From positions 103,764,513-103,828,512 of the forward strand of contig CM051521.1 of the NCBI GenBank assembly GCA_028015205.1: 64,000 nt of DNA, in the 5' to 3' direction. A program made the translations under genes and the position numbers. Source of the stretch: Mytilisepta virgata (taxonomy: Eukaryota > Mollusca > Bivalvia > Mytilida > Mytilidae). A model generated the notes under the pieces. It saw only the letters and a program-made list of their open reading frames with translations. It did not search any database and was not told where the DNA came from. Position 1 is the stretch's first letter. Each line of letters opens with the position of its first letter. This document shows, in pieces, positions 26,601 to 63,711 of the stretch.

Positions 26601-29600
26601 CTACTATATCATGTATTGTACCTTCATTTTCAAAACATCTGCACTGTCCATCTGATGATAATAAATTCATTTCTGCCAGCTGAACTGAGAATGCTGGTTT
26701 TAAACATAGATTAGATCCTGCAACAATTGCTGAATCACAGTGACCTTGTCTTATGCTCAATACAGCTCTATCTAATGCTAACATACCAGAAGCACACCCG
26801 TTCCTTAATCCAATGCTTGGACCTGTGTAAATACAAATGTTTTACATTACTTTTTTGAGCACTTTTTCCTGAAGACTTCAAAAAAATTAAATTTTGCATT
26901 TCTTTGTAGTTTTATCGGAGTATAAAAGCCAAAGCACAGACTGAAAATACCGATTTCAATGAAATGAACACGTAATGTAATATATGACAGGGAGAATGTC
27001 ACAATATTTCTTATTCACATTATTGTAATAACATATGACAATATATAAAACAATCGCATTACAAAATCTTGGTTGTCAAACAAACAAAATATTACAAGTA
27101 TGCAAATGCTGTTCTGCCATACTTTTACTAAGGCCATGCAAAAAAGATGCTGAGGTTCACAGGTCACTTTTTTTAAACTAGAGGCTCTCTAGAGCCTGTA
27201 TCGCTCACCTGGATTTAACTTTTCAACTTGAGCAGGACTAAACATTTAAGTGTTGCACTCAATTTGGCTGGTTTTTCTATAGGGTTCTATGTTAAATAAA
27301 GTTCAGCTGTGGCAGCCATCTTGGTTGACACTCCGGGTTAATGGACACATTTCTAAAAGAGAACCATCTAAGGACCATTATTGCTAAGTCTTGCTCCAAC
27401 TGGCGAAGTGGTTTCAGATAAGAAGATTTTTAAATGAATTTTCCTATAGGGTCCTATCTTAAACTAAGTTTGGCTGTGGTGGCCATCTTGGTTGACAGTC
27501 CAGATGATCAGACACATTTCTGAAAGAGGACCATCTAAGGACCCATGCTGCCAACTTTAGTTCCAATTGGCTAAGCAGTTTCAGACGAGAAGATTTTTGA
27601 GTGAATTTCCCATAGGGCCCTATGTTAAACTAAGTTCGGCTGTGGCGGCCATCTCGGTTCACAGTCCACGAAATCGGACATATTTCTGAAAGAGGACCTC
27701 CTAAGGACCATTGCTACAAAGTCTGGTTCCAATTGGTCAACTGGTTTCAAACAAGAAGATTTTTCAATGGATTTTCCCATAGGACCCTATGTTAAACTAA
27801 GTTCATGTGTGGCAGCCATTTTCGTAGACAGTCCGGGTCATCGGACACAATTCTGAAAGAGGACCATCTAAGGACCATTGCAACCAAGTCTAGTTCTAAT
27901 TGACTAAGTCAGGTTTCAGACGAAGATTTTTTAGTGAATTTCATGTGGGGTCTTATGTAAAACTAAGTTCGGCTGTGGTGGCCATATTGGTTGACAGTAC
28001 CGGTCATCAAACATATTACTGAAAGAGGACCATCAGGACCATTGCTGCCAAGTCAGGTTCCAATTGGTCAAGTGGTTTCAGACAAGAAGATTTTTCAATG
28101 AATGTTCCCATAGGGCCCTATGTTAAACTAAGTTTGGCTGTGGCAGCCATCTTGGTTAACAGTCCGGGTCATCGGGCATAATTCTGAAAGAGAACCTCCT
28201 AAGCACCAATTGTCGGTTGGAGAACAAAGTTTGGTCCCAATTGGCCCAGTGGTTTCAAAGTAGAAGATCTTTAAAGAAAAGTTTACGCCGGACGCCATCT
28301 TTAAAGGGTACAAACTCATATAAGGGATCAATCAACGATTTTGGTCATGTTGACTTATTTGTAGATCTTACTTTGATGAACATTTTTGCTGGGTACAGTT
28401 TGTTTGTATCTTTAATAATATTCAAGATAATAACATAAAACTGCAAAATGTCCTTAAAATTAACAATTCAGGGGCAATAACCCAACAAAGGGTTGACTGA
28501 TTCATCTGAAAATTTCATGGCAGCTAGATCTTGACCTGATAAACATTTTTATCTCTGTCAGTTTTCCTCTAAATGCTTTAGTTTTTTAAATATAAGACAA
28601 AAACTGTGGTTTACCCCTATGTTCTATTTTTTAGCCATGGTGCCCATGTTGGTTGGCAGGTGGGGTCATCGGACACATTTTTTAAACTACATACCCTAAT
28701 GATGCTTGTGGCCAAGTTTGGTTCCATTTGGCCCAGTAGTGTCAGAGGAGAAGATTTTCGTAAAAGTTAACGGACATTAGACGCCAAGTGATGAGAATAG
28801 CTCACTTGACCCTTTGGGTCAGGTGAGCTAAAAATGGATGAGGGAGGGGGGCTTTTTTTTTCCAATTTGTTATTGTTAGAGCATAATTTTTTTTACAAAA
28901 TCATCTAAACTGTGATTTATATCATTCCTGTGTGTCATAAAACAATTGCTGTTTGCCATAGCACACAATTCAGTTTCATAGTTGTTTTACAACTATTGAA
29001 GTTGTTTGAACACTTGTGACGCATATAAACTTATTTGTAATTTGTGTTACTCCCCGAGGTGCACCATTGTACCAAGTAATATGATTGTAGGTCCCTTGGT
29101 ATTGGAGAATTGAACTAGGACGTAAAACTTAAAGTGGAACTAAAACGCTTATAGAAAGTTATTTTCATTTTATAGTACTAAAAAAACGTATAAAAACGCA
29201 AAAACCCCGATGAAATTCGGTAACTTAGTTTTCGAGATATTAGCAAAATACTGGCCGATTGTCATTTGCACACCTGAACGATTTGTTAAAAAACGCGAAT
29301 ATTACTAGTCGTCGGAAGTGACGTACTGTGCGGTTCAGATCTTGTACATAAATAGGTACAGGTCATTTTCAAAGTGAAAGCAGATTCAGTTGATTGTTTA
29401 TACGTTATTGGTGACAACAATCGATTGGCAGTGCTTCTTATATATTCACCGACACTTGTTTGATGAAACATTGTACTTAATTTAAATCTACAATTCAACA
29501 ATGGGAAGGAATTGTGCAGTTGCGGGATGCAGCAACTCTGCAAAAACGGGACATACTCAACACGCTTTTCCAAAAGATGACCGACAACGTAACTTGTGGG

Positions 29601-32600
29601 TTCGTTTTGTAAAACTAACCCGTGTGGATTTTACTGTGCCAACTAAACACTCAGCCATATGTTCATAACACTTCTCAGAAGAATGCTATGAGGTTGACAG
29701 GTTGAAATTCAAGGAGTTATTTGGTTTATCTGCTCATAACGGCAAGAGACTATTGCCAGGTTCAGTGCCAAGCATTTATCCCAACCAGCATGACCAGTAT
29801 ACATGGTATAGTGACGGTCTGCACCAAAATACTTTTGAAAAAATAATTCTAACATGTCTGATCTTATTTGTTTTAATATACCATGCATATGTCTTTATAT
29901 ATACATCAAATTTATGTGTATATATGCACATGTTTGAAAATGAATGCATTATCATAATGTCATTGTGAGAATAAGCCTACATTAAGCCTATGCAGCCTCT
30001 CCTGTTGAATCAAAATTTTTTATGTATAACTATATTGTACCTTTACATCATACATAGGGTATATTTAAGGGTATTTTTAGAGTTATTGTGTTTGATTTAC
30101 ACCCCTTCTTTTCAAACCACCACAGTTACCAACTTCCTGAACATAGGGCTATTTAAAAATATTATTAATGAGGTAAGTAGAAGGTACATGTAAGGCCGCT
30201 TATATCAAATGCAGAGCCTTGACAGGCATGACTTTGAAAAGATGTAGCCAACAAGCTAACATAAGTTGTAGTACAATAAGAGGCTATTATAGCCAAATGT
30301 GTAGCTCCATAAAAAGTTATTCTGGTCCCATGTTCCTCTGAATTTTTTTCTCTTTCTATGAGCATAAAAGTTATACATTTGTAACCATAATAATTTCAAA
30401 TATTAAGAGTCTGCTGACTATGGTAAAATAATACAATATAGAACAATACATGTACTTCCATGATATAACTACCTCTCTATTTATATAACATGTTCATGAT
30501 CATAATCCTGATAATGCAGAAAATAATTTGGGTAAAAATGTAGCTTTTTTTAAAGACATTCTATTTCATTAGCAATGTAAAGCTAAAGCAAAGTTTGAAT
30601 GTCTAATTATTTATTAAAAGAATATGTATTTATTTATTCATTATTTATAAAAAAATATATATATATGACACTTCCAATCGTGCAAGAAATTGTAATTTCC
30701 CCCTAAAAAGTATTAAACACCTGTGAAAATTAAAACTAGTTCAAGAGACAAATTAGTAAACATGTGGATGGATATTTATCACCTTTAATCCTGGTAATTA
30801 AAACAGTTAAAGTTTTAGCACCTATTAATTAACATCCTGTTATCTAGTAATAAAGATCAAACAAAAGTTTTAATAATCCCTCCAATCAGGTAAATAACAA
30901 CTTGGCCATGCACCTACCACCTGTGGAGTAAATCAATATACCGGTAACAAAGTCATTAGAAAGGTGTTATGAAGGCATTCCAAAATAAAAAAGGAAATTC
31001 TTTGATGTCCTTTTTACCCGTATGAATTTGGAAAATTCCATCAAAATGGCAAAATGTCATTTTTTGTCCCTGGATTTGTTTAAATTGGTGGTATTATTAG
31101 AGAAAAGACCTCAAGAATAAATTTATTCTGAAAATTAATGAAAACTTTTAAAAACAGCTTTACTTTTACTGATAAATCAGAATAAATTTTGGTTGGTAGA
31201 GAATAAATTTCTTCTTAACTTGTACTCAGCACATAAATATACTATTATTATTAAAATTCATTATAAAATGTTTCTTTCTGAGACAAATATATCAGAATAA
31301 ATTTATTCCTTGGGTCATGAACGGCTTGTAGACTGAGAATAAATTTATTCTTAACTCTGATATGACGCAACTTCAGTAATAACCATCTTAGTGTTTTGTT
31401 GAGAATAAATTTATTCTTCAAATCTGAGTTTACAATCTTCTATTCCAGAGAATAAATTTATTCTTTTAAATCCAAATGTACAATCTTCTTTTTCAGAGAA
31501 TAAATTTATTCTTTAAATCCAAATGTACAATCTTCTTTTTCAGAGAATAAATTTATTCTTTAAATCCAAATGTACAATCTTCTTTTTCAGAGAACCAATT
31601 TATTCTTTAAATCCAAATGTACCATCTTCGTCTTCAGAGAATAAATTTATTCTTTAAATCAAAAAGTACAATCTTGTCTTCAAAAGAATAAATTTATTCC
31701 CAAATTAAAATATGCAATCTTAATATACAACCTTGTTTTCCAGAGATTTAATTTCTTCCCAAATTAAAATATGCAATTTTAATACACAACATTGTGTTTC
31801 AGAGAATAAATTTATTCTCAAATTAAAATATGCGATGTATAAACATACAGCTTTGTTTTTCAGAGAATAAATTTATTCTTTTAATTTTTTTTAAAGAATA
31901 AAGATGTTAACAGTGTGCTACAATATTATCTTATCTAGCACAAAAGATTTTTTATTCAATGTTATTTAACATATTTAATTTTGTGAATTTGGGAAAAAAA
32001 ATTAAAATAGAGAAAAAACTGCAGACATATATAACACTGAGATGAGATAGCTTTGTTATTTTTTTTAACTTAACAACAGAATGACTTAAATGTAAATGTT
32101 TCAAATTCAAAATCAACCTTAGTCTACTGGTTCGTAATATTGTATTAAAATGCCAACATTTGCAAAAGAAACACCAAAGGGATTAAACTGAACGTCCATA
32201 AGAATGAAACACAAAATGAATTCATAAGAACAGTAACATAAACAAATATATGTATATGTACCACAAAGTTAAAACTGAAATAATAGAAAAGACGTAGCAC
32301 ATTTAAACTTAACATTTAAAATGAGACAGCACAAGATGTAAAACACAAACAATGTGAGATACCACAATTCACTGGTTTTGTCCAATTTTTCACTGATTTT
32401 TAACAATCTTTCAGTGAATTTTCGCATGAGCTCCTTTGTTAAACTATGTTTGGCTCTGGCTGCCATCTTAGATGGCCTGCTTGGACATCGGATACAATTC
32501 TGAATGATGACCACCTAATGACCATTGCTGCCAAGGTTTGTTCCAATTGGCTTTGTGGTATCAGACAAGAAGATCTTTAAGTAAATTTCCCATAGGGTTC

Positions 32601-35600
32601 AATGTTAGACTATGTTCGGCTGTGGTATCGGAAAACTGAATTCGGACGTAAATCTTAACGTCAATGATGTGCAATAAGTAGGTCAAATTTGGTGGGAGGC
32701 CGTGTTACACCCCGCGATGCACTCTAAGACACCAAGTAATATGATTTTAGGACGCTTTGTATCAGAGAACTAAATTCAGACATAAAACTTATCTGAAGTA
32801 AGTAAGGCACGATAAGTAGGTCAGAGTGACCTAATTTTGGTGTGAGGCTGTGTTACTCACTGAATTACATCCTCACACCAAGAAAGATGATTGTAGGTAG
32901 CTTGGTATTGGAGAACTAACTTAACCTAAGTAAATGAAGCATGATAAGTAGGCAAGGGTGGCTTAATTTTGGTGGGAGGCTGTGTTACTCCCTGAGATGC
33001 ACCCTGAAACAAAGTTATATGACTAAGTTCCTTTGTATGGGAAAACAGAACTCGGACGTAAAACTTAACCTAACTCGAGGAAGTGCAAAAAGTAGGTCAC
33101 AGTGACATAATATTGGTGGGAGGCTGTGTTACTTCCCGAGATGCACCCTCACACCAAATAATGATTGTAGGTCCCTAGGTATCGGAGAACTGAACTCAAA
33201 GGTAAAACTTAACTTAAATCAATGAAGTGCAAAAAGTAGGTCATGATGACCTAATTTTGGTTGGAGGCTGTGTTACTCCCCGAGATGCACCCTAACACAA
33301 AGTAATATAATTGTAGGCCACTTTGTATGTTAAAACTGATTTTTGACATAAAAATTAAAAGCCAGTCAACCATGTAATATGGGTCATATGACCTTCATCT
33401 TATGTCACATGGTTAGTCCCTTCAACATGCACCTGCACACAAAAATATATGATCTATTGTTAAGTTTTGTTGATACACTATGCTTAGTTGCAAAGAAATG
33501 AACCTAAAATGCAAAACTTAACCAGAGTCCCTCAAGCATACAATGTAGGTCATAATGACCCAATTATTGTATGACTGCTCAGTACTACCAAAGGCACATC
33601 CACAGATGAAGTTTTGTTGATACACTATGCTTAGTTGCAAAGAAATGAACCTAAAATGCAAAACTTAACCAGAGTCGCTCAGGCATACAATGTAGGTCAT
33701 AATGACCCAATTATTGTATGACTGCTCAGTACTTCACAAGGCACATCTACTGATGAAGTTTTGTTGATACGCTATGCTTAGTTCCAAAAAAATAAACCTA
33801 AATGCAAAACTTAACCAGAGTCCCTCAAGCATAAAATGTAGGTCATAATGACCCAATTATTGTATGACTACTCATTAGAACCCAAGGCACATCCATTGAT
33901 GAAGTTTCATTGATACAATATGCTTAGTTCCAAAGAAACGAACCTAAACGCAAAACTTAACCAGAGTAGCTCAAGCATAAAATGTAGGTCATAATGACCC
34001 AATTATTACATGACTGCTAAGTACTACCCAAAGCACATCCACTGATGAAGTTTCATTGATACACTGTACTTAGTTCAAAAGAAATGAACCTAAATGCAAA
34101 ACTTAACCAGAGTCGCTCAAGCATAAAATGTAGGTCATAATGACCCAATTATGGTATGACTGATCAGTACAACCCACGGCACATCCACTTATGAAGTTTC
34201 ATTGATACACTATGCTTAGTTCAAAAGAAATGAACCTAAATGCAAAACTTAACCGGAGTCGCTCAAGTATAAAAGTTGGTCATAATGACCCAATTTTTGT
34301 ATAACTGCTCAGTACAACCCACGGCACATCCACTTATGAAGTTTCATTGAAACACTATCCTTAGTTCAAAAGAAATGAACCTAAATGCAAAACTTAACCG
34401 GAGTCGCTCAAGCATAAAATGTAGGTCATAATGACCCAAATATTGTATGACTGCTCAGTACAACCCACGGCACATCCACTTATGAAGTTTCATTGATACA
34501 CTATGCTTAGTTCAAAAGAAATGAACCTAAATGCAAAACTTAACCGGAGTCGCTCAAGTATAAAAAGTAGGTCACAATGACCCAATTATTGTATGACAGC
34601 TCAGTACTACCCAAGGCCCATCCACTGATGTTTCATTGATACACTATACACAAAGAACTGAACCTACGCGCAAAACTTAACCAGAGTCACTGATGCATGG
34701 AATGTAGGTCATAGCGACCCAAGTATTGCTAAACTGTGTTGTACTATACAAGAGGACTGTAGTGGTGATATATTACTATAGGTTTCTGAGAAATTGAGCT
34801 AAACGCAAAACTTAACCAAATCGGGACGTATGTGCGGACGGACATACAAGGGCAAATCTATATGCCCTGGCCACATTCCTGGCTGGGCATAAATAGGAGA
34901 CGACGAACAACTCATATTGTCAAAGCTACATACCAATTATGAAATCATTCTGCCCAGTAGAAGCTTAGAAAAAAATGTGACAAAAAGTGTTTGTGGACGG
35001 ACGAACGGACAAGGCGGTGAATGTAGTATAGCCGCACTTAAAGACTTGGGGTATAATATTTCAAATTGTCTTAATTCCCTAAACTGATCTAAATTTAGTA
35101 TTACTTCAAAGAATTGTAATTAAGTAGTATACAGAAAATCTCGGACACGCATGCCGTTAGGGTATCATTTTTATTTTAAAAAAATAGGTAGGTTATTTTT
35201 CTTTTAAAAAATGTTTATTTTATGTAAGGAATTTTAGTATTTTAACGGGGCTTTTACCAAAAAACCAATAAAAATGAAGAGGAGGAAAAAAATAGATCGG
35301 TAGGGAAACCCTCATCACACATTAAAATTGACATCGTTATAATAGTAAATATACTCACCGTATTTATATTTTCTGGATTGGGAGTAATGGAAAATGGAAA
35401 TAACTAACTTTATACAACCAGCACTCGTAGAAATTCACCGTATAATTATATTACATGCCACACTTTCACTCCTCGTATATAGATACAGATTTTGCATTAT
35501 CAACGGTCAATTTAAATTATAACAGATCTGCTACCGAAGGACGACGCATCCCGTTATTTTCTTTCATGGGTCATAATTTAAGCATCTTTCATTCAAAACG

Positions 35601-38600
35601 ACCGATACCTTCAGATTAATGGAATTAATTGTATCTAAATGGGAGTTATGTCCAAACTAGCCCATATGGTATCTCCAATTGAAAAACGTGGTTTGTGAAT
35701 ATTAAAAGATGGCATGCAGTGATATGTTACTTCCATTCCCGGCTTCAATTCTTCATTATTCTTCGATACGTTGAACTATGCTGGTATTTTTATTTGTATT
35801 ATAAATTAATAAAATTACCACAACAGACAATAATGTGTCATTTCGGTTTTCACAAAACGTTCATTTTCCCCCAACATTCAAAATGTGTGCATTTTCACAA
35901 TATTTAAAAATTGAATAAACGTATAGTTCGAATGTTAACACTCTGTCATGGATAAATAAATAACAGTGTGACGAAGTGTCAAAGCACGAGATTAATATAT
36001 AAAACGAGAAAAAAATTCATATTTTTTTTAATAATGAACAGGTACTTTTTCCAAGTGTAAACCAGACCAAACTTTGTCAATTTATTGGCGTAAACAATGG
36101 GGTTTAAATTGTCTTTTGTTCTAAAAAAATAATCTTTCTTAGGGAGATTGTTATATACGACTAGTCATATTTAAAAAGGGCCCAAAAATCAAGCTCATGC
36201 ACCATAGAATAATATTTTCATTGAATGCTTTAACCTCGCGGGGCGGGGGTAACTTGACCATTTTATGACGAAGGCTGTCGGTGAACTCGAAACCCATACC
36301 CGAAATTATCCACGTTATATCGAATTTGTGACCCGAAAATATCCAGGAAATCTAAAATTACACACCCGAAATTATACAAAAATAAAAAAGGCAGTTCTCA
36401 TGATGAGACATATTTATACATTTAACATTGTGTAAAGTCAACCTGAATTATCCTCAGTGCTTTATAAAAATCTGCAGAAATTTTTTAAATCCTGACCGGT
36501 GCTACATCCTAGTTTCCCCCATACCAGAATTTCAACACGGAAAATGGGTATATACTCAGATTTAGCCCCGGGCAAAAATGAGTATATACCCAATTCCCCC
36601 TCACCACGGAAAACCTGGTAGGCGTATACACATACTCATTTTCCCCCATACTAATTTTTCACCTTATTAAAAATAAAATGTACATGTGATAATATCGGTG
36701 AACGACATTTGAGCAGATTGATCCTACATTTTAGCAAATAAAATATTGCCTGGGGCCACTGAGGGCTGAATGTGTGACCTGTTATTTGAAGAAGAAAAAA
36801 TCCAATAAAGAAATATAAAATATCTTTTTCCATTGGGTTTCAATGTAAACTTTGACCATGGATGGCGCCATTTTGAATTTCTGATTGGTACTAAAGTGAC
36901 AACACTTATGAAGAACTGCATAGGGATGAAGAAAAATCTCTGCCAAGATTGGTCAAATTCTGTTCAGTGGTTCTCAAAAAGAAGACGAAAATATCATTTC
37001 CCATAGGGTTTCAATATAAACTTTGACATCGACTAGTAGACATTTTGAATTTCCGATCGGCACCAAAAAACACTTGGTTCTCTATGGAAATGGTGGTCCA
37101 ATGTAAAAATAAAATCATGACCAACTTGTCCTTTGTGTTAAACTATGCTCAAATATTCAATTTTGTTAAAAATCATAGCATTGTTTTTTTAGTAGATAGT
37201 ACGAATTTAATCAAGGGGGGAAAGTCTAGCATTGATTGGGTCTGGGGGGACATCTAGTATATACTAATTTATCCTACCATTAATTTCAGGGGGAAGTAGT
37301 ATATACTCGATTTTCCGGGAGAAAAACTCAGTATATACCAATTTATCCGGGGGAAACTCAGTATATACCCATTTTGCCGGGGAATACTTAGTATATACCC
37401 ATTTTTTCCGAGGGGGACTGGGTAGGGGGAAACTCTAGTATGTGACACTGGAATTCTCCACAGTGTCAACAAATCCCACCCCAAATCTCCGCCGGTTTTG
37501 TAAAATCTTGACCCGAATTTGCCACACGTCCCGTATCAAAATATCATTGAGTTATCCCCCGAGGTTTTAAGACATTTCATCATGTAGGCGTTGGTTTAAT
37601 GCATAATTTTTTATGTTTATTTAATCATGAAGCCTCACATACCATGCACTACTTAACATTTCATTTTTTTTTCTTTCTTATCCCCGTATTTTCGAAGAAT
37701 ATTTGGGAATAATGCTTTGTGAATTTAAAGTAGTGGTCTAAACTCCTCTTTCATTTTTCATTTTCTGCATTTAATTTCTATACAGTATTGTCACACAATG
37801 TATATAAATGCGTAGCAAGAATTTTGAATTTTGATTTTCAAAACTAGCGGTCTGTATTCAAACATTAGCATGATTGTGGAAGCGGACAATAGAACACAAA
37901 ATGCGTGGAGTACGGGGATAGCTACCTCATGAGCTAATAATTAAGTTAAAATCTGAGTCAGTGTGTCGGTCTGGTATAAAACAGGCTTTATATCATATCA
38001 ATATGTTCTGGCCCTGATATATATGTACATTTAATAACTACCACTAGACATTAAACATTTATACATCCACCTATCACCCCCCCCCCCCCCCCCACACACA
38101 CACAAGTAACAAATAAACCATACACAAAACCTTAGCATGCAACAATAGTCTAGAAATTTAAAAAAAAAAACAGATTTGACTTTGGATTTACTCCTACGTA
38201 TTATATAATACTTTTATACAACTTCAAGATTCTTTAATGTTTTAACCAAATTATCAGATATAAATAACTTATCAACTTCTGAGAAACTGAAAAGAATATT
38301 TTCTCATAATGATCTTATGCAGTTTGCAGCTACATCTATAAAAAAATCTCTCGAACTTAGGAAAGTGGACTCTACAACTGCGTAGATTTTGTACAAGTTT
38401 GTGTATGCTATATTGATGTGACTTTATTGTACTTTGTTTATTATGTTCATTTTGTTTGTTATCAACCCCTAGAGGTATAAACATGCATTTCAAATAAAGA
38501 AATATAATATATATGAAACGTTAGGTGTAATCGAGAAATTACTGAGCATAAGAAAAAAGAGGAAAAAATATTTCTCTCTCTCTCTCTCTTGCAGTATTAT

Positions 38601-41600
38601 TTTAATTAGATTTTCATTTAGTAATTTCCATAGTTATAATTTTTATTTATTTCGTTTCAATTTCTATTTAATTGGTTGGGGAAAAAAGTGGTTCTAAGCA
38701 CATAATCAATATGAATTAAACGTGAAAGATGTTTCTTCAAAACTCAGCAGGTCGGGTTTTGTTTTTAATGTTCATCAAAGGAGTCTATATCATTCTTCAT
38801 ACCATACGTAAATGTAACTCAATTACATGGTGTGACACGATATATTATAATTCAATTTCATTGACACACATTTTAGTTTGTCAGTAAACGTTCTCCAAAC
38901 TACGGTTTCTAAGGTCCGAGTGAATAGATACACAGGAAGAGTTGAATACACATGAATATTTTTTTAATAATGAATAGCAATATCGGCAAAAGAATAGATT
39001 CGAAGGAGAAGAGAAAGTAAGGAATCTCATTAAAACGGAGATTTCGTGAGAACAGTATCACAGTAATATAGCAAACAAATACTAAAAAAAAATAACTATG
39101 AGAATAATTAGAAAAAAAAACGATAAGGTTATGAGCCTATCTATGAAAGTTTCGTCTCCTTCTAGTTTCACCACAAATTGAGGGCATTGAATGGTATTTC
39201 GAGTGTTTTATCGTCAAAAGTATATACTGTATTAACTAATATTTTCGTTCAGTGTGATTTAAAAAAAATATACATATAGGAACTGAAGTGAACAAGTTGT
39301 AAAGATAAAAGGAAAATAAATTAATGCACTTTATGAGCTATTAGGTAATTTTGCTTTAAAATATTACATTTTAAATTTTAAATAACGAATTCAGTGCAAA
39401 AAAAAACATTACATTTACAACAATATATATATTGGAAGGAATTAGACTTTTTCACATCAAGAATATTTAGTTCAACTTTCTGAACGATGCCTTTAAAGAA
39501 ACTACATTGTTGTAAAAATATATTTATAACTTTTTCATGACCACTTGACCATTGACATGTCGAAGGAATTTATATGCGTGTCAAATTATAACCAAGTCGT
39601 ACAATGTTTCATGTGTCAGATTGGGAAGTAAAATAATGTCATGGTCCACATTCCCCGGTCGACCCATGCTGCTATGGTGACGATCGTTATTATCCTATTC
39701 ACAGTAGTTTCCAAGTTGCGAATTAGCTGGAAGATGTTAAACAATAAAAATGCCTTATATTGTAATTATTCTATTGATAAACGCATATAAAACTGAGATA
39801 AATACAAATCTTTAGTCCCACTTCATTATTGATAGTTATCAAATCACATTTCCGGTACAAATCACATTATGTTCCTAATCACGGTAACTTGGTTATTGTC
39901 AAATGTCTACCATATGCAAAGTAATTTAAAAAAAAAATATGAAAGAGATTGAAAATTAGTTCAGAACTCCATATTTTTTCATTTTCATATTTAATCTTCA
40001 AATGTGTGTTAATATATGTAACAGGAATTCGAAATAAATAGTTCAACATATTAGACTTCATGCGAGCTGCATAGTTTTACTAAATTATATTAACAAACAC
40101 AAAGTCGTGAACATTTGATATGTCTGTAGTGAAAATTTTTACCAATTTGAACGAGGTCGAAGAAAATCATTTCTCATTATATTTTCTTGAGAGCTTGATG
40201 CTGGATTCGATTTTTTTGGACGCAGGACATTTTAGCGGAACATTTTACAGCAAATTTTCATTATTTTGTTACATACAATGTATAGTAAGCAAAAATATTG
40301 TCAATAGTGAGAAGATTAATGACTATTACCGAAAAATCCTCCAAAATTATTTGACGCGCATTACAAGATCAGTAAGAGGAGGCGCTGCAACCAAACGATC
40401 TGAAAAATGTTCCAAAGGCTCTGCGTAGAATTAAAAGAGCAAACACATACCCAGCTTTGGCCAAGACACAGTTAGAAACACAAAGGGTGCTCCTAATGAC
40501 CAACATACAGACTAAAAAATTTGAACATTTTTACAGCTGAAAGACCCAGACCATTACCAAACTCTCCCAATAAAATATCCACATAGTATTTTAAATTCCG
40601 CAAAATTACCGCTAAAGGTCAATTTTTTTCGGCTAAATGGTCTTATCAATGAGCTAAAATGTCCCGCGTCGGATTTTTTATTGTATCATGATTAACGAAA
40701 ATTGTGGGTACTTTCTGATACAAAAATAATTATGGGAGATACCAGAAAAAAAAACATCTTATTGCATATTGAGGCTTATATTCTTCCAAATTTAAGTGGA
40801 TTTAATATGATCTGAACTGACATAACTGAAGATTGGTAAGAAATAAAATTATTGTAATCAATTATAATCATTGTTATAGATTGAACTGTCCTTTGGGGCG
40901 TCTTCATTGACATTAAAGAATTTGAATTTTTGAATTAGTAACATCAAAATATGATAAACGAATAAAAATATCTTATCCACTAAACTTTGTTCTTTTTTTC
41001 GGCCAAGCACTTTTCTTGTTATTTATTTCTTGTTGCTGATTATACTGTTTGTGACGTCACATTGGGATATTTTCATGTTTAATCAAACGAATTACTACAC
41101 GAACAATAAAATATTACCGAATTCCAAAGACAAGGCGAAATACAAACAACAACAACACAAGGAACATATTTTATTTAGTTTAACCAAATACCAGAAGCAC
41201 AACCAAGAGAAACAGAACCAGAGACAACACACAGATATAATGCACTAACACCGTGTACAACCGGCAGGCTTGAAAGATGGCACAATGTTTGATTTCTCAG
41301 ATTTTCTACCTTCAACAATGATACAATATGTAGGGATTATTAAGAAAGTAGTTGTTTCAAATGTTAAGAAAATTGACAGTTTCCCCAAATATTCAAGCAG
41401 TATCTCGGAAATTATGTATCATGAATGTTTACAACGCCTTGTTAAAAACCCTCATAGATCCGAATGTTTCGTAGTTAGTTGTAAAAGTAGTCCACTATTA
41501 TTGCGTCTTTCGTACTTTACCGATTGTACACAATGACTCTGATAATATCAACAACGGCTGTATTATTAGTTTGTTACAGTAATTTTGGCCTGGGGAGAAA

Positions 41601-44600
41601 GTCACCCTGCGTTTCCCATTGCAAGACAATAAAGAATCGCACATGAAACACCATTAGTTGCTGTTATGTTGCCTCTTTGGAGTGTTAAAGACATTAAATT
41701 AGGCATGGGATGCTGACACAAACCCCACATCTATTCGTTTTCATATCACATCAGAAAAAAATACATTATAATTTGATCGAATTCATAAAGGAGAGGGTTT
41801 TATTTGAGTATTTTGGCATATTTTAATTTACGTCTAGCTTATACATAAAATAAAAATTCTGATATTTATTTATTCTCAAATATACTATTTGACTATTTGT
41901 TGTTAGTTTTTCATTCCACAGAAACTCGGTTACAGTGGCCAAATCTAATATTTCCTTATTTTATTAATAACTGTTTCTATGTGTTTTGAAATGAGTTGCT
42001 TAAATACATGACCAGTTGCGATAGGACAAAATATCCCGAGCCGTAAGTCGTAGAGGCTACAGTTTAATAAGTGATTATTTATATTTACAGATACACTACG
42101 TCAGTATGATAAAAAAATAACAAAAAATCGAAAAGAGAAATGTGCATATCATTCCATCTGTGGACAATGTGCATGTAATGTCCATGTACTACTAAGCTCG
42201 ACTTGTTAACCCTGATGTAGAAAAAATATGTGCAGACGTATTATGGTATGGTAGTGCCGTCGGTTTCGGCTTCCGTAGACAGTTAATTTTCCGCTCATTT
42301 ACTTTTGTTCTACATGTATTAAACAAATCCTTATAATATTTTACCACAATGATCTCCATATACGAATGATTTTAGTAAATCTGGACTCTCCCGCTTTTTT
42401 TGGGGGTGGAGGGGGATAAAGTTTTTTTTATATAATTTTGGTGTACATTTTAAAATTTTCAACTGATTTTTTGTGTTCAATGTTTCTTGATTGAAATGGA
42501 ATAAACGTCATTTAGATCCATATTTTGACTATCTCTTAAATACCTCTATCTTTTAGAGATTTAAAGGGGCCAAAAAAGTGTCACGTCTTAATTTTCGAGA
42601 CTTTTTACCTGCGCCAGCTACGGAGTTGAAGTAATTTACACCTGGAATGGGACTTCATATTCGATTATTTCATAAAATAAGAATATAAAGACCTAGCCCT
42701 TTGCTCTTATGAGTTGTCCTATGTATCCGATATTGATTTGCAATACATATTTCATTTCTCCTACGAATAATATGGGGCTTCCTTTTAAGAGCTTATTTGG
42801 AATTTAACTAATGTTAAAATCAATATACACTGCCAAATTATATAAATAATCATTTACTCAAGAAAAACTAGAACTGTCCTGAAAGGGACTAATACCCCCC
42901 CCCCCCCCCCCAGCAACATGTCTGTTTTGAAGCCTACACAAAGTTCAAATCATCATATTTTTCAAAGTACTCGCCCCAACCAGAAAATACTGACAATATG
43001 TATATCTCTATAATGTGATCTAACACTCCATAAAGTTTCATGAGAATCATGCAAGTACATGTAATATAGGAGGTGTTGCGGACAACACATGTAAAGAAGT
43101 TTTGTTTAAAGAAGTTTTGTTAAAAATTTAACAGTCCAAACAGCCATATCTTTTACATTTCTTGTCCAAACAGAAATTCCGACAATGTAAACAGAAATTC
43201 CGACAATGTGCACATCTCCATATAGTGATCTAAAACTCCATAAAGTTTCATGAGAATTATGCAAGAAATCTAGGAGGAGTTGCGGACAACGTTATTTCGG
43301 ACATACGGACAAACTGAAACCTATATACTTCCAAACTTCGTTTGCGGGGGTATAATTAATAAAACGCATGTTTCACAGACTTATCGGCAACCGTCGCGTC
43401 ATTCAAAAATCAACATGGGGCGGCCTATGTATATATGTATTACAGTGCAGTACAAGATTGTTATTGTACACAACTTTTTCCTGTGGAAAAGATACTTTTG
43501 GTCTTCAAAGCATACCCAATTCACGTTTACGTAAAAATATGTACACACGGCATAAAAGTGGATATACCCTGTAATATATCGTTTGACGACATATACGATG
43601 CCATATTTGTGCACGAAAAAGTTTATTTCAGGACGAAATATGAAAGTATATATAACTGTTAAATGGTTAGGAGGATAGTAACAAATTTATTATTCTCAAA
43701 GGAAAACAGCTGCATCGTGACGAGGGGAACAATAAACTTCGGGACATACGCCTCATATCATCATGTTAATGCTTACTTTCCATTTGATCAATTAGAAGTT
43801 TGATAATTCTCTTTTATTCATAACAGTTAGTATTATATGATCCCTGTTCATAAGTAACGGGGTTAAACGGCTCAAATATATGCACGAGTATGATGAATTG
43901 ATGGACATAATGGGTGTGGTCAACGATAACCAATCATATGGTTTGAATTGGTCATGGTCACGTTATTACATGGAACCGTGTCTGATCGATAGAAAAACTA
44001 TAATTAATTAATTGGCGAAAGATTACACAGAACTCATTTAAGTTGAGAGGTATGTTCATTTTATTTAAGATTTAGTTACGATCGAGTTAATCATGCCGCA
44101 TGTAATTGAATGCATTGAGGATTGGAAGGTTGTTCAAAATACATATTTTGAAAATTGTGATTTAAAAGTATCTCGGAAAACTGTTATTTTGAAACCCAAA
44201 GACATTAATTCGGGTATATTTATAAGTCTAGGGTTTTCAATTAATGTAATAACCCGGGAGTGGGGTTTTTCATGATTTTTGGTATTGTTCGGGGTGTGTT
44301 TTGAAAAACTAATATATATTCGGGTTGTAAATTGACGGTGCTATTCAATTCCTCGGATGTTTGTGCATAAACATCAGTATAAGTCCGGGTGTGCTTTGCC
44401 GATATGGCTGTTTTGCGGGTATAGGTATTTTCATCTAAATATTTTTTTTTTGTGTATTATTAACATGTATTCTAGTATTTGTTCGGGTATCTTAGGCCAT
44501 TTTCGCACATCCTCGTCAACAATCCAGAGAGTTACCCCTCTCCCCTCTTCCGGGTAATTACACTAATTTCCAAGAACATTTCGCATCGTCTTTAGAAGTG

Positions 44601-47600
44601 AGGCTGATTATTTATGCAATCGGTAAGTCTTAACGGAAATGACCGAGCTTCATATTTTTGGCCCAAAATAATTTAATTACAAGAAGTGAGAACGTAAACA
44701 TTGTAATGCATTTCAAATTTATTTTGTTCATTTTAATTACAATCTTCACACACTTGTTTTTGAGAAAATTAGCGTAAAAATTTTAGTTACTGTAAATCAA
44801 TAACATTGAGGAGCTATTTTGGGAAATCGTAAATATCAAAACACATGATGATTCAATCGATGAAGTTTATGATAATGTATTTCATTCCCAGCCTCTTCTT
44901 GCCAATTTGACGCCTGGCAAATATCATACGTTTCGTAGGCGTTGCAAAAACCACTTTGCAATTTCTTTTTTTTAGCAGAAACAGTAAATGATCTTGGTCG
45001 ACTACTACTATTTACTTTGTGTAGACATTTTCTTCACCAACTTTCGCTATCCGCAAGCGCACGACTTCCACGGTAAGAGGTCATGTTGAGGTCATATGAA
45101 TAGGGGCGGGAATTAGATTGATTTTTTGTCGCACCGACAAAAATTTAAACAAGGTTTGTTTAATGTTAGTCCATCGGTGATTTGTTTACACAAAAAATTT
45201 TCTATAAAACATTCATTTTTTTTTAATTCGGGCGTCTGTCAACTTCTTACATGTATCTTCTATTGTTGCGATTAGGGGCATTATATCTTTATAATGATTG
45301 CATACCATCTGTAGATCAATTGCAAACATTATTGTTCGCAGGTAGTCGAATTTATAAAAAATAAACTTGTGACCTAGACTTTTCTGCATTTAACTTTGCA
45401 CAGTATTGTCATATGTATTTACAGGTGAAATAAAGTTTTAGGATTTTGATTTTAAAAATAGGGGCCCAGGGATAAAATGTTGTACCAAAAGTAGTAAATT
45501 TCAATTGTGGCTAAAATCTTCCTATTTTCCAGATGTAATATTATAAGAAGGGATTGCTTCTTTTAATAGGTTCATTGGAGTGTAAAGGCGTTGACCGACT
45601 GCCTTCATGCTTTAAATGTGTTTCAGTCATCCATGAGTGCCTTTAAATTTGTTTACACGCTAATGAATTACAAAAAGAAGATTTCAATTATTTAAGACTG
45701 TTAAATCATTCATTTTTAGCTCCCTTGTACAAAGGTCCATGTGAGCTATTGCCATCAATTGGGGTCTGTCGTCCATCTGCCTTTATTTTAAATCTGAAAT
45801 CAGTAAGCCAATTGGAACCAAAATTGGCAGCAATGGTCCTTAGATGATCCTTTATTAGCTCACTTGGCCCAAAGGGCCATGTGAGCAATTGCTATCACTT
45901 GGTGTCCGTCGTCATCGTCGTCGTAGTAAAATTTCCGTTAAAGATCTTCTCTGAAACCACTGAGCCAATTGGAACAAAACTTAGCAGCAATGGTCCTTAG
46001 GTGGTTCTCTTTCAGAATTATATCCGATGATCCGGCCCCTCATCCTAGATTGCCGCCAGAGCCGAACATAGTTTAACATAGAACACTATGGGAAATTTAC
46101 TTACAGACCTTCTTGACTGAAACCACTTGGCCAATTGGAACAAAACTTAGCAGTAATGGTCCTTAGGTGGTCCTCTTTCAGAAAAATGTCCAATGACCTC
46201 GCCTGTCATCCAAGATGGCCACAGTTTAACATAGGACCCTATTGGAAATTTACTTAAAGATGTTCTTGCCTCTGGCTTGAAACCACTTGGCCAATTGGAC
46301 TAAAATTTAGCAGCAATGGTCCTTAGGTGGTCCTCTTTCAGAATTATATCCAATGACAGGCCGGTCATCCAAGATGGCCACAAGAGCCAAACATAGTTTA
46401 ACATAGGACCCTATGGAGAATTTAATTAAAGATTTTGTCTGAAACCACTAGGCCAATCGGAACAAAACTTGGCAAGAATGGTCTTTAAATGATCCTTTTT
46501 CAGAATTATATCTGATGACCCGGCCCATCATCCAAGATGGCTGCCAGGACTGAACATAATTTAACATAAGACCCTATGAGAAATTTACTTAAATATCTTC
46601 TTGTCTGAAACCTAGTATAATATAGGACCCTATGGAGAATTTAAAGATCTTCCTGTCGGAACCACGGGTCCAATTGGAAGAAAACCTGGCAGTAATGGTC
46701 CTTAGGTGGTCCTCTTTCAGAATTATATCCAATTTCCCCACCTGTAATCCAAGACGGACGCCAGAGCCGAATATAGTTTAACATAGAACCCTATTGGAAA
46801 TTAACATCTTCTTAATATTTCTGAAACCACTGAGCCAATTGGAACAAAACTTAGCAGCAATGGTCCTTTGGTGGTCCTCTTCCAGAATTGTATCCGATGG
46901 CCCAGCCTACCATAAAAAATAGCCTTCACAGCTGAACATTGTTAAACATAGTACCATATGGGAAATTTACTTAAAGATATTCTTGTCTAAAACCACTGGG
47001 CCATTTGGGAAAAAAAACTTGGCAGCAATGTCCTTAGTTGGTCCTCTTACAGAGTTATATCCTACGATCCAACCCGTCATCCAAGATGGCTACCAGATCC
47101 GAACAGTGTTTAACATAGGACCTAACTTGAAAAATCACTGAAAGGTCTTCTTGTCTGAAATTGAAAGTTGACAGCAGTTGCACGCTGCCAGTCACGATGG
47201 ACATAGTCCAGGTGAGTGATCAGGCTCCTGGGAGCCTTTAGTTAAAGTTGTAACTGATGACCCAGACTTCCATCCAACATGGCACCAGAGCCAAACATAT
47301 GGGAAAACTGACAAAAAAATATTGTCTGAAATCAGTATGCAAATTGGAACCAATCTTAGTAGCAATGGTCCTCAGTTGATCCTTTCACAGAATTGTATGC
47401 GATGACCCTGTCTGCCGTCCAAGATGGCCAACTTAGTTTAACTTTATGGTAAAATTCACTACAAGTCTTTTTTCCTAAACCAGTGAGTCAAGTGGAACCC
47501 AATTTGGCAGAAATGGTCAGAATATTATTTGTTGGCCTGGACCATTCAAGGTGGTTAACTAACACCCTGCAGGAAAATACATTTAAAAGCTCTTCTTGTT

Positions 47601-50600
47601 TGAAACCAGTGATCGATTTGGAACCAGTGTGCCAATCAGAACTTTTATCCTCCAAACTGCCAGTCAAGATAAACATAGTCAAGCGATTTATATTGCTTTA
47701 AGTCCGCAAATGATTTAATGTGAGCAACACAGGCTTCTGGGAGCCTCTAGTTCAATATTCAATGCAGTATCTTATATTCTCGTTGCATGGAAAATTTCAT
47801 GGATATCTGCAATATAGCCTGATTTATTTTATTAAGGTCTGTCGATGCGTACATATGACGTAATTTCTTTTAGGTTGCAACAGTTTGTATGGAATATTTT
47901 ACCAGTAATAATAAAGACCACAACAAAATATATCTCTGGCATATTAGAGGACTTTTGCTTAAAACATGAAAAGGATCCAATATAAAAATGGAAAAAGATT
48001 CTGTTATAAACAAAAAATAAATCATTTATCACAAGAAGCCTGAATGATCAATTTTTATACGACCGCAAAATTTTTGCGGTCGTATATTGGTATGACGTTG
48101 GCGTCGTCGTCGTCAGCGTCGTCCGAAGACATTTGGTTTTCGCACTATAACTTTAGTATAAGTTAATAGAAATCTATGAAATTTAAACACAAGGTTTATG
48201 ACCACAAAAGGAAGGTTGGGATTGATTTTGGGAATTTTGGTCCCAACAGTTTTAGAATTACGGGCAAAAAAAGGGCCCAATAGGCATTTTTCTTGGTTTT
48301 CGCACAATAACTCTAGTATAAGTAAATAGAAATCTATGAAATTTTAACACAAGGTTTATGACCACAAGAGAAAGGTTGGGATTGTTTTTGGGAGTTTTGG
48401 TCCCAACAGTTTAGGAATTAGGGGCTAAAAAATGGCCCAGATAAGCATTTTTCTTGGTTTTTGCACAATAACTTTAGTATAAGTAAATTTAAACACAAGG
48501 TTTATGACCACAAAAGGAAGGTTGGGATTGATTTTTGGAGTTTTGGTCCCAACAGTTTAGGAATTAAGGGCCAAAAGGGTCCAAAATTAAACTTTGTTTG
48601 ATTTCATCGAAAATTGAACTATTGGGGTTCTTTGATATGCCGAATCTAACCGTGTATTTAGATTCTTAATTTTTGGTCCTGTTTTCAAATTGGTCTACAT
48701 TAAGGTCCAAAGGGTCCAAAATTAAACTTAGTTTGATTTCAACAAAAATTGAATTCTTGGGGTTCTTTGATATGCTGAATCAAAACATGTACTTAGTTTT
48801 TTTATTATGGGCCCAGTTTTCAAGTTGGTCCAAATCGGGGTCCAAAATTAAACTTCATTTGATTTCAACAAAAATTGAATATATGGGGTTCTTCGATATG
48901 CTGAATCTAACCATGTATTTAGATTTTTGATATTTGACCCGATTATCAAATTGGTCCACATTGAGGTTTAGAGGGTCTAAAATTGAACTTTATTTGATTT
49001 CATCAAAAATTGAATTCTTGGGGTTCTTTGATATGCTGAATCTATCCATGTATTTAGATTTTGGATATTGGAATACCACAAAGGGATGGTAAGAATTGTC
49101 TTTGGTAGTTATGGCTCAAACCGTTAAGGAATAAGGTGCAAAAAGGGGGGAAAAGGGTTTCCAGGTTAATGGACAATTACTTAAGTACAAAACATAATTT
49201 AAAAGGCAGTGTAAGGTTGGTAATTGAAACTTATTTGAATATCTCACCTAAACTGCTTTTAAATTATTTATATTGGAAATTTGCCAAAAACTTTATTATT
49301 AATAAATTCCATTGGAAATGTGCCAATAACTTTAGTTTAAGGCCATTTATTTTTAATTAGTTGGTTTACGGATCCGCCGACCCGATTTGAAGAAAAAAAA
49401 TAAAATTGAAAATTTTGGTTTTTTATTACCGCCGATCCTCTGAAATCAACCATCCCAAAAATAAAAATAAATTTAAAACTTTTTCCATCAAAATTTCATA
49501 AAAGATGATGTTCCAATTTGTCTTAAAATAGATTATCCGTTAATAAAATACTTGCAAAAAAAAAACTATTTATAGCCGTTAGTGATGCCAATTTCCGAAA
49601 CAAGTTTTATGAAACGAATTTCCTATTACAATCCATGCGGCTTTTAAGTTCGTTTTGTATGAATATCTTGATTCCGTAAGATATCGAATCCACTCATTTT
49701 ATCTTATCGTAGTTGACGAGTCGGATCTCTTAAAAATGGAATGGTCTACTGAACAACAACCTTCAAGATAGATGTTCTGACATTTGGCAATACAACCAAG
49801 ATTGTTCAAAAGTACACGATTTGCCCTCTTTTTTTTCTTTTTTTTCCGGACCGAGCGACCCTATTTTTAAAAAAAAAAATCCGTAAACCAATTAATTAAA
49901 AATAAAAGGCCTAATGAACTTCATTGGAAATTTGCCAATATAAAATGTTGCTGATGAAGCTTTTTTGTTTATCTCACTTAAACTGCTTTTATATTATGTA
50001 TATTGGAAATTTGCCAAAAACTTTATTATTAATAAATTCCATTGGAAATTTGCCAATAACTTTAGTTTAATGAACTTCATTGCAAATTTGCCAATATAAA
50101 ATGTTGCTGATGAAGCTTTTTTGTTTATCTCACCTAAACTGCTTTTAAATTATGTATATTGGAAATTTGCCAAAAACTTTATTATTAAATTTCTGATTTA
50201 TATATAAAAGCAAATAATAATGATAAGGCCAGAGATACACACCAAACAGGATGTGTAAATTATTATAATAAGTATTGTGCAATAGCAAGAAATTTTCAAT
50301 TGCACAGTATTGTGCAATAGCAAGAAATCTTCAGTTGCACAGTATTGTGCAATAGCAAGAAATCTTCAATTGCACAGTATTGCGCAATAGCAAGAAATTG
50401 ATATTTGGGCCCGGTTATCAAATTGGTCCACATTGAGGTTTAAAGGGTCCAAAATTGAACTTTATTTGATTTCATCAAAAATTGAACTATTGGGGTTCTT
50501 TGATATGCCGAATCTAACCGTGTATTTAGATTCTTAATTTTTGGTCCCGTTTTCAAATTGGTCTACATTAAGGTCCAAAGGGTCCAAAATTAAACTTCTT

Positions 50601-53600
50601 TAAAATTTTCCATTTTAAATTGGTTATTTCTGATTTATATATAAAAGCAAATAATACTGATATGGTTTGAATAGGTAAATTAAAAATTTTTTAATTTCTT
50701 AGACCACATTAATTCTGTGTCAGAAACCTATGCTGTGTCAAATATTTATTCACAATCCAAATTCAGTGTGTATCAAGCTTGAATGTTGTGTCCATACTTG
50801 CCCCAACTGTTCAGGGTTCGACCTCTGCGGTCGTATCAAGCTGCGCCCAGCGGAGCATTTTATTAGACATTGTCACCATACCAACACTCGCTTTACATTG
50901 CAATACACTGGGAATTTTCTATTGGCAAATACAGTTTATAAATGAAAAACACAAACAAGCAGCTAGCTACTGATGTAAGTTATATAAGTACAAGGACGGA
51001 ATGATATTATAGTTTAGTTGAATAAATGTTAGATTTAACAGGGTAGTTGGTAAGCAGTTTTTTTAATAAAGGCCCAAATCAAGAATTATAGTGATGTCTG
51101 ACTGTGAATTCATGTTTCACAATTATATGTACACTATATTTTCTGAGCTGTTTGAAGTTTAATATTGATACTTTGTGAGATTGTTCATCTCCTTCTACAG
51201 GTGTGTCACATATTTTACGAATTTCTACCTTGTAGGCCAAGCTAATTCATATGCTTAGTTCAAATTTCCATACTATGGGTGCTCGTTCAGAAACTGTGTT
51301 TGCTATATTTCAGTACATTGTACTTTTCGGAGTTCAATCGTGATACTTTGCATTAGTTGTCAATGTCTCACAAATGCCTACTCTTGTACATTATACTGAC
51401 TCCGAGCTGACCAGTCCTTTGCTCTTACTCCTACAATGCAGATGCTGTATGCTTGGCAGAGAAGCGGCAAATACCAATTTAAATGTCTTTGGTTTGACCC
51501 GGCCAGAGATCGAACCTGCGACCTTCAACACTCAAGGCGAGCATGCTACCACGAGATCACCGAGGCCGTTTTGAATGATGATGAAGATAAGAAAAAATAA
51601 TGTATGCTAGGAATACATAAATTGTCTTTGTACATCAAAATTAAATAAAAAATTTATTTTTAGCATAACACGATTGTATATTTGTATTTGGGAATAAATT
51701 TATTCCCTGAAAAAGAAGATTGTATCTTGGTGTTTAAAGAATAAATTTATTCTCTGAAAAAGAAGATTGTACATTTGGATTTAAAAAATAAATTCATTCT
51801 CTGAAAAAGAAGATTGTACATTTGGATATAAAGAATAAATTTATTCCCTGAAAAAGAAGATTGTACATTTGGATTTAAAGAATAAATTTATTCCCTGAAA
51901 AAGAAGATTGTACATTTAGATTTAAAGAATAAATTTATTCTCTGAAAAAGAAGATTGTACATTTAGACATAAAGAATAAATTTATTCTCTGAAAAAGAAG
52001 ATTGTACATTTGGATTTAAAGAATAAATTTATTCTCTGGAAAAATAGATTGTAAACTCAGATTTTAAGAATAAATTTATTCTCAACAAAACAATTAAGAT
52101 TGCTATTAATAAAGCTGGGTCATATCAGAGGTAAGAATAAATTTATTCTCAGTCTACAAGCAGTTAGCTTTGAAATTGTTCATGACCCAAGAATAAATTT
52201 ATTCTGATATATTTATCTTAGGAAGATACATTTTATAATGAACTTTAATGTTAATAGTATATTTATTGTTACTTTGGAATAAATTTATTCTTTGGGTTTT
52301 ACCTTTTCTGAAATATACCACCAATTTAAACAAATAAACAGACTAAAAATGTTGTTTTTGCCATTTTGATGGAATTTTTCAATTTCATACCGGTAAAAAG
52401 GACATCCAAGAATTTCCTTTTTTATTTTGGAAAGCCTTTATGAAAACCAGTTTTGACTGGTATTATAATTCAAATTACACAAAGAGCATAAAGTCCCATA
52501 ACCAATATTAACCAAATTATAACTCTACAAATTATTTTATAAGTTGAATAATTTTTTTTTATTAAAATCCATCAAAATCTTTTATTAAAGTTTTACATGT
52601 AAGTGTACAGTGCACTTTCTCCAATGATTCTCTACATATTTTTATTATTACAACAAGGATTGTAAGAAATTACTTATCCCTCTCTACATATATGTCTCTG
52701 ATTAAACTAAGAAATTTATTATATTTTTATAAGAAAATTCTGAAATTTTATGAATCTGTCAATTCAATAAAAAAAAAAAACACATTACAATTCTACATCA
52801 AAATCTATATTACTATTCAGTAACTTATATCACTATTTGTAAAACATCTGTTTTAAAACTATCAATTAATATTGTGTCTTATATTTGCTTGTTTAAAAAA
52901 ATAGTGTTTGTTTTTTATTCCTATAAGATGGTCTTCCATGTGTATTTATGTTATACACACCTTTCAAAATATCTTTCACTTTCATTCTTTTTATATATAT
53001 GTATATGGGGGCATTTATTGAAATTTATTGGCTATACTATTATAAATCACTAGCATTGCTGTCTTCATCCATAATATATTCCTTCTGGTCAATGTAAACA
53101 AGTTCAAGAGTAGCCCGCACTGTACGTCATTTCCGGTCAATCCGGGTCACTCAGCGAGGAAACCCTGTTTCCGGAAATAGCGCTGATTGGATTTCCCACA
53201 GGTAAAAATAATCCAACTTCACTCGCTATTTTCTCCGTTATTACTTGACCAAATTTCATCGGGTTTTTTGCGTTTTTATACGTTTATTTAGTACTATAAA
53301 ATGAAAATAACTTGCTATAAGCGTTTTAGTTCCACTTTAACCTAAGTCAATGAAGCAAGATAAGTAGGTCAGAGTGACCTGTTTGGTAGGAGGCTGTGTT
53401 ACTCCCCCAGATACAAGCTCACAGTAAGTTATATGACTGTAGGTCCCTTGGTATTGGATAACTGAACTTGGACATAAAACTGAACCTAAGTCAACAAAGC
53501 ACGATAAGTAGGTCCGAGTGACCTAATTTTGGTGAGAGGCTGTGTTACTCCTCAAGATGCACCCTCACACCAAGTAATATCACTGTAGTTCCCTTGGTAT

Positions 53601-57282: not shown

Positions 57283-57287
57283 TTCAC
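57093..57287 (-). CDS. FASN-like exon 1 (first coding exon, KS N-terminus)
   Basis: Coding from ATG at 57282 to 57093 (190 nt, residues 1-63, ends phase 1 before a GT at 57092). A 22-residue leader precedes [18 protein letters not shown], the conserved start of an animal FAS KS. The ATG lies five bases after an AG preceded by an acceptor-like stretch (exon edge near 57287), so a separate upstream 5' UTR exon is likely; I could not identify it. No promoter was recognised. Confidence 0.85.
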
Positions 57288-57882
57288 CTGAGCTAAATAT
57301 AATACAATTATTAATGCAAACTCTTTTATAAGAATTATCTAATAAAGTCTATTTGACTTCTATAGGTCTTCAAAAATTAAATTTTAAAATTAAAATATTC
57401 TACTGTTTTACAATCTTTTCCTATTGATAAAAGAAAATTAAACACATATTTTCAGAATTTTTGCTCCATTTTTACACAAGTTACCCTTACATGTACAAGT
57501 AGGTATCTATAGTAATATTTTAATTACTGAAATTTTTCCAATGCGAACAAGTATAGTATCTTACCCGTACTATGTAAACAAAAATAGAAAAATGTGCAAT
57601 TACATCATACCATGTGACTAGTCAATTTAAATAATGAGATTTCAGAACATAAATTGCATAAAAATATGGTATTTTCTGTTAAATTTTGTTATCCCTTCTC
57701 TGTAATGTTATTTGCGACATAAATTTGCTTTTAATTTGGTTCTTTACTATAATATTTAAACATACTTTTTGTTTGGTGTTGTGTTGTCCATTTACGCATT
57801 TATTTGATTGGGAACACACCTTCAGATGAAGATAAAATTTCGTGACAAAAAAACTTCAAATTTTGATTTTATCTTAAAGGGC

Positions 57883-61408: not shown

Positions 61409-62029
61409 TATAGGACAATTGCTACCAAATTTCACTCTTAATTTATGGCCTCCACCTCCCCTACAGCCATACCTCACCTCCTTTTTACTTAAAATAAAAG
61501 TTAATAACACAATTTTTATAAAAAAAAAAGTTCTAAACTTAATGTTACAAACTAAATTGTAAATGAAACCACTTTAGCTGAAACTTAGTCTTCAATTTGG
61601 CATTTTAAACTTGTTCAATAATTCAAATCAATCTGAAACAATGAATTCAATTACAATATATTGTACCTCCCATCAGTCTCAACTGCAGAGCACTCATGCC
61701 AATATTGTTTGACTATTTCAAGGTAAAAAAGGGAAAAAATAAATCTGTGTATAATTTACTATTGAAGATTTCATTTACATTTTGAGCCTTAGAAACAATC
61801 TTAAGATTACAGTTTGGATGCATGCTTCATGCATATTTCATCTAACAAATAATCATCAGCAGTGCTCAGTCAGGGTCAGTTGGCAAACAAAACAATAATT
61901 GGAAAACATTTAAGGCTATATCCTGATTCTACCCCGTACGGGGAAAAATGTCAGGTGTATTTTTTCAACTAATTTCCATGCCCGAAAAAAATAATTGAAT
62001 AAAGGAAAGATTTTATTAATGTTAATTTT
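61409..62029. other. Spacer, nothing recognised
   Basis: AT-rich sequence between the LTR element and the satellite. CCCCGTACGGGG at 61933-61943 is a short palindrome near the satellite's start. Confidence 0.5.
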
Positions 62030-63560: not shown

Positions 63561-63711
63561 GGTGTAGACAGAAGCAGAGAATGAAGAAAATTACCGTATG
63601 TTTCTTATCCAAGTGTCTGAAAGGGTCTTCTTTGGGGATATTCAGGAGAAAAAAGGGGCTTGGTATTTTTGGGGGGTCCAAAGAAAGAAATTGAAATTAA
63701 AAAGTAAGGAA

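Follow-up and report, generated by a model that had tools for sequence, protein, structure and literature searches.

In Mytilisepta virgata, a large insertion within a FAS-like gene intron is best explained by two transposition events, and we consider it very probable that one element (B) is nested inside the other (A). The window, meaning the entire 64,000-nucleotide stretch of DNA that was analyzed, had previously been described in an initial annotation as carrying one 24-kb element in this intron. We instead find two nested transposons, with lengths of 2.74 kb (A) and 21.5 kb (B). Element A, about 2.74 kb long and of Kolobok type, carries a THAP exon, is flanked by TTAA, and occupies positions 29129-30971 and 52443-53340 of the window; it is a new non-autonomous member of this group. 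Element B represents a giant, apparently non-autonomous family of inverted-repeat transposons, of which this genome holds at least 24 paired copies. The nesting is based on the observed ends, the target duplications, the uninterrupted copies of A, the paired ends of B, and the interior that B copies share.

The insertion site in a FAS-like gene

The host gene is located on the minus strand, where ketosynthase exons were found at positions 57055-57348, 55283-55432, 54494-54664, and 26566-26841. Intron numbers for this gene are counts over the exons found in the window, and these exons also define the host intron, which runs on the minus strand from 54492 to 26823 (27,670 bp). Removal of the insert leaves 3,462 bp, in agreement with the earlier estimate of approximately 3.5 kb. 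Neither Rfam families nor tRNAs were identified in the window.

The target of element A is a 143-bp tandem repeat located at positions 53337-53776 on the plus strand, with a partial unit at 29043-29132. When the flanks of A are joined at a single TTAA, they align over the junction to six other stretches of the 143-bp repeat with 76-83% identity. None of the six alignments has a gap in the junction TTAA itself, and some have gaps within about 10 bases.

Several other features were observed elsewhere in the window. The next host intron carries a 385-bp MITE (25968-26352) with inverted repeats of about 95 bp and a 9-bp duplication (TATTTATAC) at 25959-25967 and 26353-26361, all as judged by eye. 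The length of this duplication leads us to presume that the MITE is Mutator-like. A 343-aa open frame at 2628-3659 includes a DDE_1 domain (Pfam E 3.4e-45) and is presumably pogo/Tigger-like. In addition, a 1.5-kb minisatellite that is built from 44-bp units and shows strong GC skew is present at 62027-63568.

Ends and THAP exon of element A

The terminal inverted repeats of A are located at 29129-29221 on the plus strand and at 53248-53340 on the minus strand, and they carry TTAA at 29129-29132 and 53337-53340. These ends are alike at 89 of 93 positions when the TTAA is counted in. The long inverted ends and the TTAA duplication that were originally proposed are thus borne out, both by this match and by the alignment of the joined flanks to other 143-bp repeats. 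The window holds no third good copy of this end, and only weak partial matches were found (best E 0.004). As a control, 150,929 TTAA pairs were scored with the larger arrays excluded. The pair of A ranked at the top, followed by a separate MITE (92.5%) and then by a pair at 53.8%, whereas pairs within the mirrored arrays described below reach 96.8% when arrays are included.

A mirrored 21-mer is found inside these ends at 29313-29333 on the plus strand and at 53115-53135 on the minus strand, with 19 of 21 positions alike. We take this 21-mer to resemble an ETS-CRE promoter motif. Just inside its right copy, at 53040-53072, the minus strand carries an ATG followed by a short peptide (10 protein letters) and a stop, and this frame is perhaps the remnant of a second gene.

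The THAP exon that had been noted within the insert is confirmed (29501-29788, plus strand; Pfam E 1.3e-8) and includes a stop codon at 29666-29668. A match to Zf_WRKY19 in the same frame (E 0.0084) was judged to be due to chance. According to tblastn, the protein P0001 is a close relative of this exon (93% over 96 aa), and it is identical to P0002 from Mytilus edulis over 62% of the P0001 length. P0002 continues past the THAP domain into a region that appears to be Kolobok-like, and Pfam returned no significant match for that region. A catalytic DDD/E transposase domain with an H2CH motif was not found in the window's copy of A, as is the case for non-autonomous elements. Likewise, tblastn searches of the insert gave a best match of only E 2.5 for the P0001 tail, one stretch (36878-36979) at E 0.15 for the P0002 tail, and nothing at E 1 or better for P0004 and P0005. 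The Kolobok label of A is a sequence-based prediction that draws on the ends, the TTAA, the THAP domain, and one gene model.

Copies of element A elsewhere in the genome

A first look through the genome with the 93-bp end of A yielded 848 candidates, and the best 40 that were scored all match at 99-100%. We fetched nine other genomic copies. As the earlier reading had anticipated, other copies share both ends: the second end is present in inverted orientation in all nine, and TTAA is found at both ends in every case. The span from end to end is 2,727-2,751 bp in seven of the nine copies, which are approximately 97% identical to the two arms of A in the window when these are joined. These seven align to window positions 29129-30973 and then directly to 52438-53340, with a 7-base overlap, such that the left part of A (29129-30971, plus strand) is continuous with its right part (52443-53340, plus strand). 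The site where B resides in the window reads GTGTTATGAAAACC in all seven uninterrupted copies examined. Furthermore, the palindrome GAATAAATTTATTC characteristic of the mirrored arrays does not occur in any of the nine fetched stretches. These uninterrupted copies without the palindrome indicate that the TTAA element is short and that the remainder of the insert in the window is something else. The proposal of an oversized Kolobok element is consequently abandoned, as A itself is only about 2.74 kb in length.

The two remaining copies are longer (5,759 and 6,639 bp) and match parts of the A arms in the window. Additional insertions in these two contain open frames of 676 and 1,172 aa that resemble, on visual inspection, a hAT-type transposase and a LINE. 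Seven of the nine other copies retain no fewer than 90 residues of the THAP domain, which is free of stops in two of those seven.

Element B and its mirrored arms

Element B spans 21,467 bp (30972-52438, plus strand) with the ends AAGGCATTCC...GGAAAGCCTT, reading AAGGCATTCC on one strand and AAGGCTTTCC on the other. Comparison of its flanks on the plus strand reveals a target duplication, TATG, at 30968-30971 and 52439-52442, although the window alone would be compatible with a duplication of 4, 6, or 7 bases. The left arm (30972-31878, plus strand) has 13 palindrome sites, 11 of which are exact. It is mirrored by the right arm (51641-52438, minus strand), which has 12 sites with 11 exact. The exact palindrome GAATAAATTTATTC therefore occurs 22 times in the window, 11 times per side, and it appears nowhere else in the window nor in 100 shuffles. 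The order of the palindromes is also mirrored, with spacings of 86 and 66/67 on the outside and 47 on the inside. These arrays are the subterminal arms of B itself and are separate from A. The mirror arrays noted in the initial annotation are thus real, but they do not belong to the TTAA ends. At 51440-51575, visual inspection suggested a SINE-like sequence containing tRNA-like boxes on the minus strand; ARAGORN finds no tRNA there.

Both ends of B recur in the genome. The first 321 bp of the left end match at 97-100% at the best 40 of 176 candidates, and 37 of these 40 cover the whole probe. The right end matches at 98-100% at the best 40 of 189 candidates. All 20 left ends of B that were read have AA directly ahead of GGCATTCC, and the flanks farther out differ. 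Among the matches listed, a correctly oriented right end accompanies at least 24 of the 40 left ends, compared to a chance expectation of 0.05 pairs; for the other 16, none of the 40 listed right ends fits as a partner. The paired copies range from 11,972 to 32,923 bp with a median of 19,510 bp, and 16 of the 24 are below 20 kb.

Target duplications were counted for 16 copies, consisting of the window copy and 15 further right flanks. An exact 4-bp duplication surrounds ends of the form AAGGC...GCCTT at 14 of these copies, including the TATG copy in the window. The duplications vary in sequence, with TATG, GTTT, GGCG, and AAGC among them. The two exceptions are L032, in which three of the four duplicated bases are alike, and L039, which does not fit. 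Because B has exact inverted ends, a duplication of fixed length, and many copies with different flanks, it has the appearance of a cut-and-paste transposon. A literature search, covering neither Repbase nor most subscription papers and made without the end sequence of B, found no published report of A or B.

Interior and coding content of element B

The first 7.8 kb of a second copy of B (22,588 bp) were read and are collinear with window positions 30974-38355 (7.4 kb) at about 97% identity. They include the tandem-repeat complex located at 32381-34728 in the window, and this complex therefore belongs to the B family. We had considered the complex as a later insertion, and this option was rejected on the same grounds. 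A 1.5-kb interior probe (43300-44800) matches at 91-100% at the best 40 of 1,625 candidates. Among the matches listed, 14 of the 40 places fall within the 24 paired copies, and each of these 14 is oriented as expected. Similarly, 33 of the 40 are within 35 kb of a listed B end, and seven are near none. Since the interior belongs to the giant B family, there is no need to invoke cargo or captured sequence as was formerly suggested.

The interior of B is rich in tandem arrays, as had been reported, but the nested MITEs reported with them were not seen, and only one short inverted pair was observed inside the insert. Related repeats of about 166 bp form short arrays of either orientation, within B as well as within host introns (14912-15610, 21359-22147, 27274-28286, 45849-47244, 53969-54290, and 58905-59151).

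We scanned 92 of 97 plus-strand frames and all 94 minus-strand frames of the insert against Pfam, leaving out frames in repeat complexes. No transposase domain was found in these 186 frames, and the only domain recognized was THAP, which belongs to A. Weak matches (E 0.016-0.046, one member each) were judged to be due to chance. Likewise, no open frame longer than 120 aa is present in the 7.8 kb of the second copy. Searches with the exact TIR pattern returned no matches in either viral or prokaryotic contig collections, and paired palindromes were absent from viral contigs. The queries P0002, A3, and P0004 matched 7, 64, and 7 stretches of viral contigs, respectively, and A3 matched 43 stretches of prokaryotic genome contigs, none of which were confirmed.

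Comparison with known transposons

The termini of A are AG...CT, which fits the 5'-RR and YY-3' pattern given for Kolobok termini in the available portion of PMC9587614. Element A is also like the Kolobok superfamily, as described in the available excerpts of PMC9587614 and PMC6004289, in its TTAA, its AG...CT termini, and its THAP domain. It differs in that no catalytic domain is seen in the window's A and in that its 2.74-kb copies are short. Nothing observed here links B to Kolobok; its 4-bp duplications vary in sequence instead of being TTAA. The earlier assignment to Kolobok is supported for A, with its TTAA and THAP exon, but does not extend to B.

Elements of the P superfamily and Galileo generate duplications of 7-8 bp, whereas 14 of 16 copies of B show a 4-bp duplication. 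Polintons generate 6-bp duplications and carry PolB and integrase genes. In B the duplication is 4 bp, and polymerase and integrase domains were not found in the scanned frames. Helitrons have neither target duplications nor inverted ends, and B has both. Duplications of 4 bp are known from superfamilies such as Sola, Ginger, and Chapaev. Each of these has a characteristic transposase, and no coding copy of B was found in the window or in the 7.8 kb of a second copy.

With regard to architecture, the arms of B are similar to those of Galileo/Foldback elements in that both are long and mirrored with repeated sites near the ends, as depicted in the excerpted text of PMC3688188. However, B has a 4-bp duplication, AAGGC ends, a length of about 20 kb, and no THAP domain was found in it. 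According to the same excerpts, the Galileo arm repeats are bound by the THAP domain of the transposase and are proposed to offset length (PMC3688188). Pack-MULEs and other non-autonomous TIR elements, as presented in the part of PMC6431247 at hand, lack a transposase of their own and move in trans, as B probably does too. That part gives Pack-MULEs as not above 7 kb, compared to the 19.5-kb median of paired B copies, and it places Polintons and other giant transposons in the same 15-25 kb size class as B (PMC6431247).

Evaluation of alternative explanations

A single giant 24-kb Kolobok-type element was first suggested because the arrays seemed tied to the TTAA ends and because the THAP exon has the relatives P0001 and P0002. 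Although the inverted ends, the TTAA, and the mirrored arrays just inside the ends would all be expected of such an element, the copies of A that are uninterrupted at 2.74 kb and the array ends that occur elsewhere with other flanks and with their own 4-bp duplication leave this reading with almost no likelihood. A related version, in which one decayed 24-kb Kolobok-type element had grown by nested repeats, was withdrawn after the genome copies of A and B were found. Setting the divergence of the TIR against that of the array also proved uninformative, as this compares parts of two different elements. We regard it as highly improbable that a segmental or tandem-repeat mode of spread, rather than transposition of whole units, dispersed the interior of B, given that 14 of 16 copies have exact 4-bp duplications and that the ends fall at the same base. 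The abundance of tandem arrays in the interior and the seven of 40 listed interior places near no listed B end are the observations that would favor such spreading.

A more substantial alternative, but still an unlikely one, is that B is autonomous, with a transposase encoded by some copies or by exons too diverged for Pfam. Reading covered 7.8 kb of only one other copy, the lengths of paired copies vary from 12 to 33 kb, and the Pfam scan left out frames in repeat complexes, all of which leave room for such a gene. Nevertheless, no domain apart from the THAP of A was found in 186 insert frames, and the 7.8 kb of the second copy have no open frame above 120 aa. Since no transposase was recognized in the window's B, this element most likely moved in trans. 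The earlier idea of a giant element without a recognizable transposase that is mobilized in trans therefore probably fits B, but not a Kolobok-type element.

Proposed history and implications

The nested arrangement suggests the following order of events. The non-autonomous, 2.74-kb Kolobok-type element A would have entered a TTAA of the 143-bp repeat in the intron, presumably with a Kolobok transposase encoded at another locus acting on it in trans. The giant inverted-repeat element B would then have entered A at TATG and duplicated these 4 bp. We propose that B moves by a cut-and-paste process with a transposase that is supplied in trans and encoded elsewhere. The palindromes of its mirrored arms, about a dozen in each, are putative binding sites that may help to pair ends located about 20 kb apart, and they might be bound by a host factor instead of the transposase.

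It is conceivable, although we advance this only tentatively, that B represents a new lineage of giant, gene-poor transposons. Its dozens of copies of about 20 kb would encode nothing recognizable, and mirrored palindromic arms would join far-apart ends under the action of a trans-supplied transposase, making B a natural long-cargo transposon. DNA transposition is described in the available text of PMC6431247 as much less efficient above approximately 6 kb of cargo, and engineered systems are noted there to have moved 100-200 kb. The presence of at least 24 paired B copies near 20 kb, with ends that are 97-98% alike, shows that natural elements this large can spread. A possible means by which elements the size of B do so is suggested by the mirrored palindrome arms, and this possibility could be tested using short DNA and candidate transposases.
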